From Sulfurimonas crateris (GTDB lineage: Bacteria > Campylobacterota > Campylobacteria > Campylobacterales > Sulfurimonadaceae): a stretch of DNA of 64,000 nt. The position numbers and the translations under genes are program-made. The notes below the pieces were generated by a model. That model saw only the letters and a program-made list of their open reading frames with translations. It had not been told where the DNA came from and searched no databases. Where the stretch lies: NCBI RefSeq assembly GCF_005217605.1, contig NZ_SZPX01000003.1, positions 1 to 64,000 on the forward strand. The letters run 5' to 3'. Shown piece by piece: positions 5,454 to 20,646 of the stretch. Positions within the stretch are counted from its first letter, which is position 1, and each line of letters opens with the position of its first letter.

Positions 5454-7397
5454 CTACTCCGTATTTGCGCTTTTTCTAGGTTCTGAAAGAAAGTAGCCTT
5501 GTGTGCGGTTTACGTTAAGCTCTTTGACCTTTTCATAGATGTCAGCGCTGTGCACAAACTCCGCTACAGTCAATATATTTAATCTTTTTGCAAAGTCAAC
5601 TATCGTCTCAACGATTATCTGGGCGCTTATATCATTGTCAAGATTCTCAATCAGGGTGCCGTCGATCTTTATATAGTCAATATTTAACTTAAGTAGATGC
5701 TCAAAGTTTGAGTATCCGCTTCCAAAGTCATCGATTGCTATTCTACAGCCAAGCTTTTTCATCTCACGTGTAAAAATAGAGACCTCTTCATAATTTTCTA
5801 TGCCGTCTGATTCAAGTATCTCAAAGATGATTTTGTTTGCAACGTTGTACTGGATTATTTTTGCCTTTATGTAGTTGACAATATCGACATTAAGAATATC
5901 TTCCACGGAGAGGTTGATAGAGAAGTCATACTCAAGATCTGCAAAGTGTATGCAGCTTTTTTCTATCATTATCTTTGTGAGCGTATTGTAGAGGCGGCTC
6001 TTTTTTGCAACATTTAAAAATAGGTATGGACTTATGACTTTACCCTCATCGTCTATTAAGCGCACAAGACACTCAAAACTTGCAATTTTATCTGTTATGT
6101 TGTCAAATATAGGTTGATAGTAAGGAACAATCATATCATGTTCAATAGCTTTTTTTAGCTTTTTAACCCACTCCATATTCTCTTTATATTGACCTTCGAT
6201 ATTTAGATTCTCATCATAAAGCAGAAATGATTTTTGCTGTTTTTTTGCAGATTTTAGAGCTATGTCCGCTTTTTCCAAGCCGCCGTCAACTTGATATGCT
6301 CCGCCTACCGTTACTCTTATGCTTATCTCGTTGTTGTCGTTGAAAAAAATCATCTTCTCAACGTCGTTTATTAGCTTATGCGCAATTTTTATAAACTCTT
6401 GAAGCGGAGGTTTTTGAACAAAGAGCAGTGCGAACTCATCTCCGGAGAGGCGCTTTAGCTTAACAAACTCATTGGCTTTAAACATATTTTTAAGTCTGTT
6501 TGAGAACTTTTTTAGAACATTGTCTCCTGCAATCTGGCCAAAGAAATCATTTATCTCTTTGAAGTCGTCTATATTGATAATAAGCAGCGCTCCATCGTCG
6601 ATATCTACTATGTCGTTGAACATACTAAATCTGTTTGGAAGACCTGTTAGCGTATCTATATAGAGCTGTGCACGAAGTTCAAGTGTCTTTTCATTTACTT
6701 TCTCCTCCAGATAGTGGTTTATGTTCTCCTGCTTTTTTGAATACTGCACTATTTTTTTCTGCATATTGGTTAGAGCATTTGAGATAAGTCCGATCTCATT
6801 GTTCTGCGATATAAATGGAATCTCTATATTTTTGTTAGGAGAGTAGTTCTTTAGCAGTTTTGATATCTGTCTCAGCGGAGAGAGAAGTTTTTTTACATAA
6901 AGACCAAATAGCGCAAGAAGAATCACCAGAGATAAAACAAGTAGAGCAGTTAGATCGGTGTACTTTGATATAAGCTCTTTATACCCTTTGTTTGAGTATA
7001 TAAGTACAAGTTCACCTATCGCTTTTGATGAGTTTGGTTGAGTAAGAGTCCTCTTTACCACAAAAGATTCATCTATTTCGGCTTTGTGCTCTTTTGATTC
7101 TACATAGTTGATAAGATTGTTGTTTTTGAGTACTTTTACGGCAAGAATATTTGGATTTTCTATAAGCTGCATGGTGATCTGGTTTATTTTATCTTCCATA
7201 TCAAGATATATATTCAGTGAGATAAGCGGCTCGATAGTTTGGGCGATAATATGTGCTTTTTCTATCTCTATGTGATGAAAAGCTTCCTTGTTTATTTTGT
7301 TGGAAACTACAAAAATAACCAAAGTCATAAAAATAGAAACAAATGCGATCGAGAGCACTATTTTTGTAGATAGAGAGTTGAAACTTTTTCTTTTCAT
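5454..7397 (-). CDS. Membrane GGDEF-EAL protein with periplasmic sensor
   Basis: A 647-residue inner-membrane protein. It has TM1 (about 12-32), a periplasmic domain (about 33-145), TM2 (about 147-168), a HAMP-like linker, and a GGDEF domain with DTLTGLPNR and SGDEF (about 318) but no RxxD inhibitory site. The EAL domain keeps ECLVR (about 441), INLS, EILES, IDDFGSGYSN (about 553), KIDG and TQGYF. The EAL metal and catalytic residues are present, so c-di-GMP hydrolysis is plausible; SGDEF variants can still be cyclases. The layout resembles YfiN/TpbB receptors. It is the last gene of the operon, 72 bp after the YfiR-like gene, which in known systems binds the periplasmic domain of such a protein. 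Confidence 0.85.
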   Translation of the reverse strand: MKRKSFNSLSTKIVLSIAFVSIFMTLVIFVVSNKINKEAFHHIEIEKAHIIAQTIEPLISLNIYLDMEDKINQITMQLIENPNILAVKVLKNNNLINYVESKEHKAEIDESFVVKRTLTQPNSSKAIGELVLIYSNKGYKELISKYTDLTALLVLSLVILLALFGLYVKKLLSPLRQISKLLKNYSPNKNIEIPFISQNNEIGLISNALTNMQKKIVQYSKKQENINHYLEEKVNEKTLELRAQLYIDTLTGLPNRFSMFNDIVDIDDGALLIINIDDFKEINDFFGQIAGDNVLKKFSNRLKNMFKANEFVKLKRLSGDEFALLFVQKPPLQEFIKIAHKLINDVEKMIFFNDNNEISIRVTVGGAYQVDGGLEKADIALKSAKKQQKSFLLYDENLNIEGQYKENMEWVKKLKKAIEHDMIVPYYQPIFDNITDKIASFECLVRLIDDEGKVISPYLFLNVAKKSRLYNTLTKIMIEKSCIHFADLEYDFSINLSVEDILNVDIVNYIKAKIIQYNVANKIIFEILESDGIENYEEVSIFTREMKKLGCRIAIDDFGSGYSNFEHLLKLNIDYIKIDGTLIENLDNDISAQIIVETIVDFAKRLNILTVAEFVHSADIYEKVKELNVNRTQGYFLSEPRKSANTE

Positions 7398-7469
7398 ATA
7401 GATGCCTTAGAGTGCCGATACACATACTTTGAGTATATTTTATCATACATATAAAATAATCTACTCTTT

Positions 7470-8015
7470 TTAACTGCCGCTTTTATCAACAAAGTTGACG
7501 ATCTGGTAAAGTGAATCGACAAAATCGATCTTTTTAGTATTGAGGTTCTCTTTGTTGAGATAAAGTACAGTTGATTTTTCAAGCATTAAAGAAAAAAGTA
7601 TTCCCTGCTTTAAATTGTTTATGCTGTAAGTGAATGAGATAATGCCCTGTTTAATTGCACCTTGTGCTACTTTTTCAATATTTTCTTCAGAGTTCAAGAC
7701 GTAAACTGCAGTTGCTTGAGTCTCATCAGAGAAATTGGAAAACTCTACCAGATCCACTTTGCAACTATATTTACTTTTGTCTTTTCTATTGTTAGCCTCT
7801 ATAAACTCTCCTATCTCCAAGGCGGTATGGTAGTCCTCTTTTTCATAAACGATGGTATATACTATCTTGCCGTCTACAAGTTTGTTTTCGAGTTGTTTAT
7901 CAAGCATAATTATTTTAGGAAAGATAGATGCTTGTGCCTTTAAGAGAAGTTTGTTGTATGTATACCCATAAGAATAGTTGACAAGCATAAAAAGTAAAAG
8001 AGCTGTTTTTTTCAT
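7470..8015 (-). CDS. YfiR-like periplasmic protein (DUF4154)
   Basis: A 181-residue protein with an N-terminal signal sequence (KKTALLLFMLVNYSYG). The body fits the YfiR/DUF4154 family: a KAQASIFPKIIMLDKQL segment, strands around TIVYEKEDYHTALEIGEFIEAN, and a C-terminal GILFSLMLEKSTVLYLNKENL. YfiR proteins sit in the periplasm and restrain a membrane diguanylate cyclase. The start codon directly abuts the stop of the TonB receptor gene, which implies translational coupling. The partner is presumably the GGDEF-EAL protein encoded next. Confidence 0.75.
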   Translation of the reverse strand: MKKTALLLFMLVNYSYGYTYNKLLLKAQASIFPKIIMLDKQLENKLVDGKIVYTIVYEKEDYHTALEIGEFIEANNRKDKSKYSCKVDLVEFSNFSDETQATAVYVLNSEENIEKVAQGAIKQGIISFTYSINNLKQGILFSLMLEKSTVLYLNKENLNTKKIDFVDSLYQIVNFVDKSGS

Positions 8016-10124
8016 TTAAAACTCTTTTTTGAGCGTTATTAAAAAAGTTCTGCGCTCTTGCTCGTAATCTTCAGGATAGGTGCTAACGGCAGACGGAAAT
8101 TTAACGGTAGAGTTAAAGATATTTTTTACGCTAAACGTCAAAGCAAAGTCATGTTCTTTGTTTTTGTACTGCATAGCAGTGTCAAAAGTAGAGTATGCCT
8201 TTACCTTTTCGCGTGTATCTCCGAATACTCTGTTTTTTGAGCCGACAAATTTAGCTGTGGTACTAATAGACAAAGTTCTGTCAATGTTATAGATGTAGTA
8301 CCCTTTTGCCAGATGATTCGCAACATTTGATAGCGATTCACTTCTTGCTTCATCGTTTATATAAGATTTTCCTGTCACGTAGGAGTAGTTCAGGTAGAGC
8401 TGATCAAGAGATGTTATATTTCCCTTATACTCGAGTTCAAAGCCGTAGATATCGGTATCCATTACATTCTCATATTCCGGAGATGTAGATGAGTTATATA
8501 TCTGGTCTTTATTTAGAAGATAAAAAAGATTTGTCTGAATATATGAGTCATTGGAGAATTTTTTGATATATGCTGCCTCAAAAGCATCTACTATTTCAGG
8601 TTTTAGATCACTGCTGCCTACTCTGGCACGGTTGTTCATCGTAAACATCTCCTGCCACGAGGCATTTCTGTGTGAGCGGCTGTATATTGCTTTAAAAATA
8701 TTTTCTGCATCTAGCTGATAGACCATAGATACTCTAGGTTCCAGACCTGCATCTTCGTATGAGGTCTCTTCATAATTAAAGCCGTAGATGAAGCTGAGAT
8801 TATTGTTTAGTTCAAACTCGTCTTGTAGTGATATGATAAGAGTATTGCGTTTGGCATTTGCATCAAAAAACGGATATGTTTGCGTATAGTCATATAGTTC
8901 AGGTAAGCCTGTTGACCAATTTGATAGCTTTGAGATCATATCTATGGTCTCTTCTCTTGTAAGACGGTACCCAAAGGTAAAAAGATGTCTCTCTACTCCT
9001 CTGTACTTGAGATAAGAAGATTGATAAAGTGTTCTTTGTGTTGCTAAATGCTCTCCGTATAATCCATCTGCAAATGAAACAGGAGGAGAGACTGTACCAT
9101 AAGTGTCAAATTGGTACATGTCAATAAAGTTTAAACCATCCGGAAGCAGTTTGGATTTGGAATCAAATGTATCATATTTTATACCTGCATCTATATTTAG
9201 CTCATAATCGTTGATTTTTTTGTTATAGCCCAAATCTAGATAGTAGCTTGGCAGTTTTACCCTATCGTTCTCTTGAGGGAGCGAATAGTTAATGCCGTAA
9301 GCACTCCCTTTTTTATGCTCAAGCATCCTAGCTTTGAGAGAAAAATCTTTATACTCAAGACTCAGTCCGAGAGAGTACTCCTCTAGCCACAGGGGAGCAT
9401 CTCCAGACTGAGAAAGTGCTCTGTTATCATAGCCCGTCATGCTCATAACACCCTGAGACAAGCCATCAGGACCAGATGGCAATTTTTTATTATCCTCTTG
9501 GTAGAAAAAGTCAACAGAAACTCTTAGATCATCCACCTTGTAGTTCTTAAAAAAACCGCCCATTTTGTAGTCGTATGAGCCGTATTTAAAAACTATTTTG
9601 TCGCTAGAGTTAAAGCCTTCAAAATCTTCAGCATATGTAATAACATTTATTGAACCGGCATAAGCATTAAACCCATCCGTTTTACTTCCGGGGCCTCTTA
9701 CGACTTCTATACGCTTGATCATCTCAACGGGAAAAGAGAGATATTCAGAGTAGGCATCTAGAAAAAGGTTGTTAACGGGTACGCCGTCGATAAAGAGCTT
9801 TGACTGCCCGTATGCCAGAGAGTTTGACCCCCTGAATATAGGTGTTTGATTATTTGAGTTATCTGTTGCCATATCAACACCTGGAACCAAAAACAGAGCC
9901 TCTTTCAGGTTTGATATACCAAGTTTTTCAAGCTCTTTACCGTTAAAAGTAGATATGATATAGGGTTGATAATGTTCGTTTTGTTTTGTAGTAGTTGCAA
10001 CTTCGCTGAAATGTTTCATTTGGTTTGCTAGGGACTCTACTGCATTGTCTACACCTCCATCTGCAACACAAGAATATGTTAAAGAGGACAGTAAAAGAGC
10101 TATATTAAACAGTTTGTTTTGCAT
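8016..10124 (-). CDS. TonB-dependent outer-membrane receptor
   Basis: A 702-residue receptor. It has a signal peptide (about 1-22), a plug domain (about 50-165) with LKEALFLVPGVDM, FRGSNS, LFIDGVPVNN and IEVVRGPGS, then a 22-strand-type beta-barrel ending in the expected aromatic residue (LKKEF). TonB receptors move a ligand across the outer membrane using TonB. The substrate is not evident. Being second in the operon, between an acyltransferase and a YfiR-like protein, suggests that it senses or imports a signal rather than iron. The nearest tonB-like gene is at 22838. Confidence 0.88.
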   Translation of the reverse strand: MQNKLFNIALLLSSLTYSCVADGGVDNAVESLANQMKHFSEVATTTKQNEHYQPYIISTFNGKELEKLGISNLKEALFLVPGVDMATDNSNNQTPIFRGSNSLAYGQSKLFIDGVPVNNLFLDAYSEYLSFPVEMIKRIEVVRGPGSKTDGFNAYAGSINVITYAEDFEGFNSSDKIVFKYGSYDYKMGGFFKNYKVDDLRVSVDFFYQEDNKKLPSGPDGLSQGVMSMTGYDNRALSQSGDAPLWLEEYSLGLSLEYKDFSLKARMLEHKKGSAYGINYSLPQENDRVKLPSYYLDLGYNKKINDYELNIDAGIKYDTFDSKSKLLPDGLNFIDMYQFDTYGTVSPPVSFADGLYGEHLATQRTLYQSSYLKYRGVERHLFTFGYRLTREETIDMISKLSNWSTGLPELYDYTQTYPFFDANAKRNTLIISLQDEFELNNNLSFIYGFNYEETSYEDAGLEPRVSMVYQLDAENIFKAIYSRSHRNASWQEMFTMNNRARVGSSDLKPEIVDAFEAAYIKKFSNDSYIQTNLFYLLNKDQIYNSSTSPEYENVMDTDIYGFELEYKGNITSLDQLYLNYSYVTGKSYINDEARSESLSNVANHLAKGYYIYNIDRTLSISTTAKFVGSKNRVFGDTREKVKAYSTFDTAMQYKNKEHDFALTFSVKNIFNSTVKFPSAVSTYPEDYEQERRTFLITLKKEF

Positions 10125-10134
10125 AATTTTCTTT

Positions 10135-10713
10135 CTATGCCTGAATAAATTCAGGATTATCTTTTCCTAGTTGGCTTGTATATAAGACAGATGGATGTCT
10201 TAAACCCATTTTTCCATGGAGCTGCATTGAGGCTAGCACTTCATACTGTATTTTATACATTTTAAGAAGCCTTATAAAACTCGGTTCCAATGCTCCATAA
10301 GTATACTCTATACCGAGTTTTATCATTTTGTGATACATAAGTTTTTTAAGTCCATTCATGATATCCATTGTAGTTTTTATATTTCTATATTTAGCACCAA
10401 CAAAAATCCTCGACATCTCTCCTAGTTTATCTCTTTCAAATATGCTATTGTCAAATACCATACAGTTCTCCGTTGGGTAACCGTGTGGGCAGTTGTAAAT
10501 CAACCTTACCGTTGCACAAATATTTTGTATATCATCAAGTACTACAAAATGAACAGAGTAAGGATCATAAATATCGCTCTCTTTGTTATTGACAAAATTA
10601 TTATCTACAACATACTCTTTAAATATTTCAGTTTGCGTAATTACCTTATATCTAAACTCAAATACTTTTTCAAGCAACTCTTTGTCATGTACTTCTAAAA
10701 ATGTAAAGTTCAA
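10135..10713 (-). CDS. Autoinducer-synthase/exosortase-type N-acyltransferase
   Basis: A 192-residue GNAT-fold protein. It has the fingerprint of LuxI-type and PEP-CTERM/exosortase-associated acyltransferases: FRYKV (Arg21), DIYDPYSVHFVV (Asp47, Asp50), ATVRLI (Arg70) and GEMSRIFV (Glu99, Arg102). The D-x2-D and E-x2-R spacings match those families, which make N-acyl homoserine lactones or N-acyl amino acids from acyl carriers. No exosortase gene is nearby. It is the first gene of a four-gene operon, 10 bp before the TonB receptor. The ribosome site is weak. The product is unknown; a diffusible N-acyl signal is my inference. Confidence 0.6.
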   Translation of the reverse strand: MNFTFLEVHDKELLEKVFEFRYKVITQTEIFKEYVVDNNFVNNKESDIYDPYSVHFVVLDDIQNICATVRLIYNCPHGYPTENCMVFDNSIFERDKLGEMSRIFVGAKYRNIKTTMDIMNGLKKLMYHKMIKLGIEYTYGALEPSFIRLLKMYKIQYEVLASMQLHGKMGLRHPSVLYTSQLGKDNPEFIQA

Positions 10714-10881
10714 GCTATCTCTTTTGCGCTATATTGCAGATAACTTGTAAGAGCGTAGGCTGTTAATGCTTCTGTAATATAGCTTTGTAAAATTTATTAA
10801 TTAAATATATTTATATATTTATAATATTAGTAATAATATTTAAATAAAAATTAATACAAACTGAAATATATAGCTAAGAAA
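10714..10881. promoter_or_regulatory. Promoter region of the acyltransferase-receptor-GGDEF operon
   Basis: A 168-bp, very AT-rich gap between pepA and the first gene of the operon, both on the minus strand. It contains an AT-only inverted repeat (AATATTAGTAATAATATT, about 10825-10842) and several TATAAT-like runs. The operon promoter must be here or further upstream; I cannot fix a single -10 box. Confidence 0.3.
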
Positions 10882-14923: not shown

Positions 14924-15607
14924 TTATGATAGTAGTAACTTTAAAATTGTCTGCACAGGCATTAGAAGCAGATAATCTTTTAGCGGCGTCATAAGAACTA
15001 TTAAAACTATAATTATTCCATATCTTTCATTTTTATAAAAGAACTCCGCAACGGAATTTATCCTGTATTTTAGCGAAAGGTGCATTAGAAAGTGCGCCCC
15101 GTCAAATTGCGGTATAGGGAGCAGATTGAAGACTCCAAGTACAACATTTATGATAACACTCTGAAGTATAAATAGATATGCAAAAATATAAAGCAGCGAA
15201 TCTGCATCGGTAGGTCTGCTAAGATTTATAAGAACAATAGATGCTATCGCGGCTAATGTAAAGTTGTAGACTATACCCGCCAGGTCAACTTGCATAGCTC
15301 CGTTATATCCTGCTCTGTCAACTACAGTTCTCATATTTATAGGAACAGGCTTTGCCCAGCCAAACAAAAATCCGCTCTCACTTCCAAGAAGTATAGGCAC
15401 AAAATACAAAGCCGCAGGAACAAGAATAGTTCCTACCAAGTCTATATGTGAAATAGGATTAATAGAGAGCCTTCCTGCATTTTTTGCCGTATTGTCGCCG
15501 TACATGTATGCAACCCATCCGTGCATTATCTCATGTCCTACGATTGCCAGAGTTAAGGCAAAAACGGCAGCGGCGATTTTTAGAAGATCAATAGATTCCA
15601 TAGTCAT
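14924..15607 (-). CDS. Site-2 protease family (M50) membrane metallopeptidase
   Basis: A 227-residue multi-helix protein. The zinc motif HEIMHG is at residues 25-30 inside TM1, and the second metal ligand is in NLLPIPQFDGAH (about 160-171). This is the minimal M50/site-2 protease form widespread in Campylobacterota. It cleaves membrane-embedded substrates; the target is not known. Its first 20 bp overlap the end of the signal peptidase gene at 15588, showing translational coupling. Confidence 0.88.
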   Translation of the reverse strand: MTMESIDLLKIAAAVFALTLAIVGHEIMHGWVAYMYGDNTAKNAGRLSINPISHIDLVGTILVPAALYFVPILLGSESGFLFGWAKPVPINMRTVVDRAGYNGAMQVDLAGIVYNFTLAAIASIVLINLSRPTDADSLLYIFAYLFILQSVIINVVLGVFNLLPIPQFDGAHFLMHLSLKYRINSVAEFFYKNERYGIIIVLIVLMTPLKDYLLLMPVQTILKLLLS

Positions 15608-16568
15608 CTTTATCTTTTTTTATTCTCTCAACAACGGCTCTATCCAGATGCTCCGGAGCTTCTAGATCGGTAGGAGTTTTCCCTAAACGGTCCCATCTTA
15701 TCTCCCAATCTTCATCTATGCTAAAGTAGATAAACCAAGGAGTCCCTTCGATATTCTCATATGGAACAGCTCCCCAAAAACGGCTGTCGTTCGAGTGGTC
15801 TCGGTTGTCGCCCATCATAAAGTAGTGATCTTCATCGACTCTTATCGGAGCAAAGTTAAAAATAGGCATAGGATATTGACCGTTAAGAGAGATCTTATCA
15901 TCGTGGTGTATCCCGGGATGTTCTTTCATATATGGATTCTTGACCCAGAGCTTCTGGGCAAAAACTACGATATCCTCTTCATTAAAGTTGTTCTTTATCC
16001 ACTCATCGCCTTCTCTGTGGTGTAGATAGAGATTTTTATCAGCTACGAAGAGCTCATCACCAGGAAGTGCTACACATCTTTTTACAAAGTGCTGTTTTGT
16101 GTTGTGAGGCGGTCTGAATATTACAATGTCGCCACGTTGAATTTTTTTTGATGAAATTTTATTTAATGAAACACAATCTCCAGATAAAATATTATAATTC
16201 ATGTGATTAGAAGTTAGATTGAAATTTTCAATCACATAAGTTTTAATCAAAAATGTTGAAGTTACATTAAGAAGAATAAATAGTAAATAAAAATACCATT
16301 TATTGTAACTTTCCAGTTTGTAATTGAAAATATTATTTGCTTCTTTAAAAGAAAGAATTATATTTGCGGCGTATATAGAGAACAATAAAAATAAAAAGCT
16401 TAGATAAAAAACATTACCAAAATAATAACTTAGATAAAAAGTAAAGATATAAATTAAAAAAAAACTAATAAAAAAAAATATTGCTTTTCCCAATTTTCCA
16501 CAATACATAAACCCCAATCCAGGGAATAAAAAAGATAAAAAAGCAGCTAAAAATTTGTTTCTTTTCAT
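15588..16568 (-). CDS. Chimeric signal peptidase I, catalytic Ser replaced by His
   Basis: A 326-residue protein. Residues 1-118 carry extra membrane helices (FPGLGFMYCGKLGKAIFFF and following) and are strongly AT-biased. From about 144 on (QRGDIVIFRPPHN) it matches signal peptidase I, with catalytic Lys163 (HFVKRC) and MGDNRDHSNDSRFWG. Aligning FNLTSNHMNYNILSGD with the FKIPSGSMKDSLLIGD of the copy at 19762 puts His122 at the nucleophilic Ser39. The 3' half has normal host base use, overlaps the M50 gene and looks like the original lepB tail; the 5' half looks imported. Peptidase activity is doubtful. Confidence 0.75.
   Translation of the reverse strand: MKRNKFLAAFLSFLFPGLGFMYCGKLGKAIFFFISFFLIYIFTFYLSYYFGNVFYLSFLFLLFSIYAANIILSFKEANNIFNYKLESYNKWYFYLLFILLNVTSTFLIKTYVIENFNLTSNHMNYNILSGDCVSLNKISSKKIQRGDIVIFRPPHNTKQHFVKRCVALPGDELFVADKNLYLHHREGDEWIKNNFNEEDIVVFAQKLWVKNPYMKEHPGIHHDDKISLNGQYPMPIFNFAPIRVDEDHYFMMGDNRDHSNDSRFWGAVPYENIEGTPWFIYFSIDEDWEIRWDRLGKTPTDLEAPEHLDRAVVERIKKDKDDYGIY
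16084..16115. repeat. Left recombination segment in lepB
   Basis: These 32 bp are identical to 20333-20364 (offset 4,249). They encode the RPPHNTKQHFV part of signal peptidase on the minus strand. Base composition switches on either side in opposite senses in the two copies. This is the probable crossover region of the lepB insertion. Confidence 0.6.
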
Positions 16569-19761: not shown

Positions 19762-20646
19762 TCAATAGATTCCATGATCTGCTTTATCATTTGTGAGGCG
19801 TTCGTTTCTTGCGCGTTCAAGATATTCATTCTCTTCTAGGTTAGTTGGTGTTTTACCAATTCTATCCCATCTGATTTCCCAATTTTCGTCAATGCTGAAA
19901 TATACAAACCATGGTGTTCCCTCAATATTTTCATAAGGCACGGCACCCCAAAAACGGCTGTCATTTGAGTGGTCTCGATTATCACCAATCATATAATATT
20001 TGCCTTGTTCCACTTTTTTATAAAAAGCATTAAATGGTAATCTATAGTCTATAACTGGGAGGCCCTCAATTAATTTAGGCTCCATATCTATTGTATAGTT
20101 TGGTGATAACATATGACTTATCATATCGTTAAAAATATCATGATTAGCATCATAGTGAATACCACTGTGTTTATCAATCATTGGATTTTTAATCCATAGT
20201 TTATTTAAAATTTTTACTATTTTTTCTTTTGGAAAGTGTTTATGAATATAGTCATCACCTTCATTCGGTCTTAAGTATAATGTTTTATCTGAAAATATAA
20301 CTTCATCCCCACCAATAGCGAAGCATCTCTTAACAAAGTGCTGTTTTGTGTTGTGAGGCGGTCTAAATATAACTATATCGCCCCTTTGCGGCGTGTCGCC
20401 GTCAATTAGACGAAGCTTGTCGCTCCACGGCATGATCGAGACTTCTAAAAAAGGAATATGAGGCATAGAGACACCGTAGGCAAACTTCTTTGCAAAAAGA
20501 TGGTCCCCTATAAGAAGAGAGTCCTTCATTGAGCCGCTTGGTATCTTAAAAGCTTGAGCGATAAAAAATATAACAAAAAGAACGATGATGATCGTTCCTG
20601 TCCACGAGTTTGAAAATTTGTATGTTTTGTGTAAGATCTCTTTCAT
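19762..20646 (-). CDS. lepB: Signal peptidase I (native 5' half, donor 3' half)
   Basis: A 294-residue enzyme with one membrane helix (about 18-33). The catalytic serine is in IPSGSMKDSL (Ser39) and the catalytic lysine in HFVKRC (Lys106), followed by GDNRDHSNDSRFWGAVPYENIEG. It removes signal peptides at the periplasmic face. It starts one base after folD, the conserved operon position. The first ~100 codons use host-like GC-richer codons, while from about 20340 down the sequence is AT-rich and differs from the normal-looking tail found in the copy at 15588. I read this as a recombinant that kept all catalytic residues. Confidence 0.88.
   Translation of the reverse strand: MKEILHKTYKFSNSWTGTIIIVLFVIFFIAQAFKIPSGSMKDSLLIGDHLFAKKFAYGVSMPHIPFLEVSIMPWSDKLRLIDGDTPQRGDIVIFRPPHNTKQHFVKRCFAIGGDEVIFSDKTLYLRPNEGDDYIHKHFPKEKIVKILNKLWIKNPMIDKHSGIHYDANHDIFNDMISHMLSPNYTIDMEPKLIEGLPVIDYRLPFNAFYKKVEQGKYYMIGDNRDHSNDSRFWGAVPYENIEGTPWFVYFSIDENWEIRWDRIGKTPTNLEENEYLERARNERLTNDKADHGIY
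20333..20364. repeat. Right recombination segment in lepB
   Basis: The partner of 16084-16115: 32 identical bases, 4,249 bp apart, in direct orientation. A direct repeat bounding the insertion is what a single crossover of a circular donor, or a site-specific insertion with duplicated core, would leave. Confidence 0.6.

Follow-up and report, generated by a model that had tools for sequence, protein, structure and literature searches.

A chain of four genes in Sulfurimonas crateris would allow the cell to make a compound, to detect it at its own outer membrane, and to pass the news through the periplasm into a change in c-di-GMP, and we put the probability that the chain is such a self-sensing circuit at roughly 60%. 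The genes lie within the window that we analyzed (64,000 nucleotides, positions 1 to 64,000 of contig NZ_SZPX01000003.1), and the first-pass annotation was right about their place: all four are on the minus strand, running from 10713 to 5454 in the order acyltransferase (AT), receptor, YfiR-like protein, and GGDEF-EAL protein. The features are these:

10714..10881, minus strand: A+T-rich intergenic region between a pepA-like gene and the AT gene, presumed from its sequence to be the promoter region
10135..10713, minus strand: AT, an acyltransferase of the acyl-homoserine lactone (AHL) synthase/FeeM fold, 192 aa, TTG start
8016..10124, minus strand: TonB-dependent outer-membrane receptor, 702 aa, plug domain at residues 54-157, no STN (FecA-type) match
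7470..8015, minus strand: YfiR-fold periplasmic protein, 181 aa, N-terminal signal peptide
5454..7397, minus strand: GGDEF-EAL membrane protein, 647 aa, with HAMP, GGDEF (246-389), and EAL (413-640)

Ten nucleotides separate the AT and receptor genes, none separate the receptor and YfiR-like genes (which abut at 8016 and 8015, as had been claimed), and 72 lie between the YfiR-like and GGDEF-EAL genes. In the S. crateris genome, AT and YfiR of the operon's type are each matched once. Promoter- and terminator-like sites around the operon were in no clear excess over shuffled sequence, and no promoter could be placed with confidence; no repeats were found around the AT start, and the four-gene unit encodes no exporter. 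In two Hydrogenimonas-type genomes, a 1036-aa protein that resembles RND efflux pumps by sequence is encoded directly upstream of the AT (L146, 3946-7053; L147, 7387-10494) and is a possible exporter. Elsewhere in the window, positions 1-469 and 1241-1365 carry repeats of ~80-127 nt, some in tandem and others dispersed, that contain short palindromes and include one pair with 100% identity; a 40-nt part of them also matches immediately upstream of the AT in the relative L041, and 15588-16568 and 19762-20646 encode signal peptidase I-like paralogues, judged by sequence, whose C-terminal parts are closely similar.

What kind of enzyme is the AT? It had been credited with a LuxI/exosortase-acyltransferase fingerprint, of which the residue set and the synthase fold have held, and the exosortase identity has not. 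The named residues are real and conserved: across 29 homologues, R21, D47, D50, E99, and R102 are invariant (as are Y49, S101, and R110), and R70 is kept in at least 90%. The AT sequence by itself found nothing in the PDB, and a profile was needed; a profile of the 29 homologues has the AHL synthases TofI, RpaI, and LasI among its best PDB matches. A predicted model of the AT (pLDDT 93) finds AHL synthases and FeeM as its ten best PDB entries (Z 16.0-18.3), with LasI at Z 18.3 (rmsd 2.9 over 183 residues; TofI, BjaI, and RpaI similar) and FeeM (2g0b) at Z 18.1 (rmsd 3.0 over 173 residues). On the evidence of the model, the two tie, and the fold match does not separate an AHL synthase from FeeM; the next GNATs reach Z 16.0 at most, over ~142 residues.

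Searches with sequence profiles place the window AT above the cut-off of PF13444 (27.4 bits) and at half the cut-off of TIGR03694 (56.6 bits against 111.95), which is nonetheless its best NCBIfam match; PF00765 gives no match at E up to 1, and PF21926 is not among the matches. Relatives of the AT do pass the PF21926 cut-off, and one of them, L132, passes both PF00765 (37.1 bits) and PF21926 (38.1 bits, cut-off 27). Profile, fold, and relatives' Pfam matches together put the AT in the autoinducer-synthase/FeeM fold group and not in an unrelated GNAT family.

Two known arrangements were considered for it and rejected. The PEP-CTERM/exosortase-associated acyltransferases of TIGR03694 differ from the window AT not only in the halved score but also in being longer, and PF09721 finds no exosortase in the genome. 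A LuxI/LuxR pair falls because PF03472, the LuxR autoinducer-binding domain, likewise finds nothing there; without either partner, the system is neither LuxI/LuxR nor PEP-CTERM. The AT shares with LuxI-type AHL synthases (LasI, TofI, BjaI, and RpaI; PF00765) the fold, at Z 17.5-18.3, and the residue set R...D..D...R...E.SR, but it is only 11-16% identical to them, and its partner is an outer-membrane receptor. FeeM shares the fold as well, and it is not known to be accompanied by a receptor or a c-di-GMP enzyme. A synthase that does score above the TIGR03694 cut-off adjoins a ThiF-family gene in two other loci (L070, 7941-9562; L069), at the same post-pepA site that the operon occupies in the window.

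The case that AT and receptor belong together begins with their linkage. Of the 58 AT copies recovered, 52 have the receptor as the next gene downstream on their strand; the other six are accounted for by two contig ends, three lone ATs (L055, L129, and L145), and one rearrangement (L066). About 20 groups of upstream neighbor, at many unrelated chromosomal sites, indicate that the unit stays together as its surroundings change, and the AT-receptor linkage is more than chance. The suggestion that all four genes travel together is borne out by the neighborhood survey, in which they co-occur across genera and at least four families of Campylobacterota, with the same order in Sulfurimonas relatives, other genera of the family, Hydrogenimonas, Arcobacteraceae, and one family more; Sulfuricurvum has a divergent GGDEF-EAL gene. 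Of 200 genomes of the family, 45 have the AT and 111 have the YfiR gene, with close and remote matches both counted for the latter; counting strong matches only, 29 genomes have both, 1 has the AT only, 10 have YfiR only, and 160 have neither (Fisher 2.5e-25, uncorrected for relatedness). A one-motif scan of named genomes gave matches in Campylobacterota only. On plasmids, the YfiR gene has no match, and the AT is matched only by distant (35%) proteins of Aliarcobacter. A longer FeeM-like protein of ~253 aa that matches PF21926 is encoded in L149, L150, L151, L155, and L161 (4779-5537, on Aliarcobacter faecis plasmid pAFAEC), and on Aliarcobacter plasmids it is annotated as "hypothetical protein"; its gene comes after those of a 7TMR-DISM histidine kinase and a response regulator, an order that may mark another synthase-sensor pair, built differently.

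Linkage is joined by co-variation. We compared pairwise distances in 43 cassettes, and in a subset of 21 that are Sulfurimonas-like. With YfiR and GGDEF-EAL removed, the AT and receptor give a partial r of 0.63 in the full set (jackknife 0.61-0.68) and 0.57 in the subset (0.45-0.63), with a permutation p of 0.0005 and phylogeny only partly controlled. The AT's correlations with YfiR and with GGDEF-EAL are near zero, and its co-variation is specific to the receptor; the other co-varying pair is YfiR and GGDEF-EAL (0.55 in the full set, 0.83 in the subset). Might this be no more than neighboring genes recombining as one? The AT signal is steady along the receptor gene and does not fade, and the abutting receptor and YfiR genes have a correlation of -0.15 in the Sulfurimonas-like set (0.26 in the full set), both of which make short recombination tracts a poor explanation.

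Receptors also outlive their synthases. One clade of the receptor tree consists mostly of AT-linked receptors, with AT-less copies scattered inside it; seven receptor cassettes persist with no adjacent AT (L072, L073, L075, L077, L078, L079, and L080), and in L071 and L081 the AT is broken. The AT has been repeatedly lost or broken while receptor, relay, and effector were retained, and the AT-less cassettes would look like strains that only listen or like receptors turned to another ligand. Where the AT once might have been expected, other genes are found: in two genomes its position is occupied by metE, the cobalamin-independent methionine synthase (L072, 2658-4937; L077, 3860-6133), and elsewhere (L078, 3278-6818; L156, 13994-19000) by genes for an NRPS and a phosphopantetheinyl transferase, which adjoin the receptor and YfiR genes, with a hipA-like pair in place of the GGDEF-EAL gene. 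We count the NRPS and activating transferase of L078, as another maker of acyl or peptide compounds next to the receptor, in favor of a self-sensing circuit.

The AT may be exchanged as well as lost. Between the window and its nearest relative, L041, identity is 93% for GGDEF-EAL, 87% for the receptor, and 81% for YfiR but only 62% for the AT, in flanking genes that are 92-98% identical (except for one at the far end, 71%). The nucleotide match is broken from within the AT to just inside the receptor gene, from which we think that the AT allele was probably replaced. With ATs so different and receptors so similar, the pairing is loose rather than strictly one-to-one, unless the two alleles yield the same compound.

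The receptor itself is what it had been taken for, a TonB-dependent receptor with a PF07715 plug (61.1 bits, cut-off 23.9), and it raises the main rival that remains to a self-sensing circuit. Its nearest solved structures are uptake receptors, the colicin I receptor/CirA and BtuB, and one can imagine that the AT product is a secreted amphiphile, a surfactant or metal-binding N-acyl compound, which captures a metal or nutrient and is retrieved in loaded form by the receptor, while YfiR and GGDEF-EAL do nothing but report the uptake. The NRPS that sits beside the receptor in one relative, as in siderophore loci, would suit such scavenging, as would the further TonB receptor and transport genes that follow the unit in L044. 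The conserved unit, however, has no inner-membrane transporter, its conserved partners are signaling proteins, and usually no gene for the biosynthesis of a metal chelator stands alongside the AT. We regard scavenging as unlikely, although it deserves to be kept in mind.

Less probable still is a true AHL circuit, in which the AT would use S-adenosylmethionine to make an acyl-homoserine lactone and the receptor would read the lactone in the place of LuxR. LasI, TofI, BjaI, and RpaI do tie with FeeM as the nearest folds, and a subtype of the AT has the tryptophan of LuxI (the W34 position): it is present only in L055 (genome G046), L056, L129 (genome G466), L132, and L133, and some relatives match PF00765 and TraI models. 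The same tryptophan is absent from the window AT and from most homologues, which favors an N-acyl amino acid over an AHL. Moreover, an LCM-family carboxyl methyltransferase gene (PF04072) is in front of the subtype AT in L055/L134, L129, and L133, and this points to a free carboxylate on the product, which a lactone does not have. N-acyl amino acid methyl esters (NAME) are a product class that such an AT and an LCM-type methyltransferase could make; according to PMC11580390, no candidate genes for the NAME synthase had been found. In L154 (5920-7747), an LCM-type methyltransferase gene precedes one for a FeeM-like synthase that carries a fused cyclic-nucleotide-binding domain.

The subtype has receptors to match. 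Those from G046, G466, L132, L133, and L075 fall into a single subclade (SH-aLRT 96), and in G046 and G466 the subtype AT and the matching receptor cassette are on different contigs. G107 has the receptor and no AT; in G083, the AT lies at the end of a contig, and YfiR is not matched.

The weakest alternative, that the AT makes an OlsB-like N-acyl amino acid lipid for the envelope, that the receptor senses an outside nutrient, and that the genes are joined through the same surface-attachment program, can draw on weak OlsB-model matches in relatives (L145, 2e-8) and on the PF13444 match of the window AT, but OlsB cut-offs are not approached (34/320 bits), the unit has no second acyltransferase of the OlsA/PlsC type, and neither AT-receptor co-variation nor subtype matching would be expected, all of which leaves it quite improbable.

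We return, then, to the self-sensing circuit and to its inner half. The third gene had been called YfiR-like, and the call stands with no Pfam support for the window protein: PF13689 (YfiR/HmsC-like) does not match it and matches 2 of 22 members (best 0.0064), but the predicted model (pLDDT 87) fits the fold of Pseudomonas aeruginosa YfiR at Z 13.4-13.8 and rmsd 3.1-3.2 over 144-145 residues. Homology to YfiR rests on that predicted model, whose structure matches also include solute-binding proteins, one solved with L-Trp. YfiR has been crystallized with L-Trp or vitamin B6, and the binding is very weak (PMC4887326). The YfiR-like gene adjoins the gene of a membrane c-di-GMP protein, and this fourth gene does encode a membrane GGDEF-EAL protein with a periplasmic segment (EAL 208 bits, GGDEF 77 bits), flanked by two membrane helices predicted from the sequence; its best PDB match is PA0861.

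As to what this protein does, the annotation of a c-di-GMP enzyme holds for its domains, and the half with invariant catalytic residues is the EAL phosphodiesterase, not the cyclase. The EAL residues E442, N495, E526, E529, D556, D557, K577, E613, and Q633 are identical in 67 of 67 homologues, whereas the GGDEF signature, which is SGDEF in the window protein, varies in its first positions across the same 67. With nine EAL positions that never vary and a GGDEF signature that does, the output is most safely read as c-di-GMP hydrolysis, which the GGDEF half may regulate.

The closest precedent is YfiBNR of P. aeruginosa, which also has an outer-membrane component, a YfiR-fold periplasmic protein, and an inner-membrane c-di-GMP protein with a periplasmic segment, HAMP, and GGDEF. 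The operon differs in that its outer-membrane part is a TonB-dependent receptor and not the peptidoglycan-binding YfiB, its enzyme carries an EAL domain with invariant catalytic residues, and a synthase has been added. The circuit might run as follows. The AT, to judge by its fold and residues, would acylate an amine, which is more likely to be an amino acid (as with FeeM) than homoserine lactone. The compound would leave the cell and, as linkage and co-variation suggest, be recognized by the adjoining receptor. By the precedent of YfiBNR, the receptor would then alter what the YfiR-fold protein does in the periplasm, either by contact on its periplasmic side or by admitting the ligand. The YfiR-fold protein would, in turn, act through the periplasmic segment on the GGDEF-EAL protein, presumably a c-di-GMP phosphodiesterase for the most part. 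The local level of a compound made by the cell or by its neighbor would then set c-di-GMP and with it the choice between attached and motile life.

Is this a class of its own? We found no description of the four-gene combination in open-access papers. A broader claim, that here is a new quorum-type sensing class, spread across Campylobacterota, in which an acyl synthase and a co-evolving TonB-dependent receptor signal through YfiR to c-di-GMP, with synthase alleles that swap, listeners that have no synthase, and an LCM sub-branch that makes an N-acyl amino acid methyl ester, is one that we offer tentatively, with the odds somewhat against it. If the circuit is real, acyl signals can be sensed without LuxR and without a sensor kinase: a type of receptor associated mainly with the uptake of nutrients would read the cell's own compound at the outer membrane, and the result would be a change in c-di-GMP. 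Campylobacterota, which are common at vents and in sulfidic water, would then have a route by which to sense their density or their neighbors.
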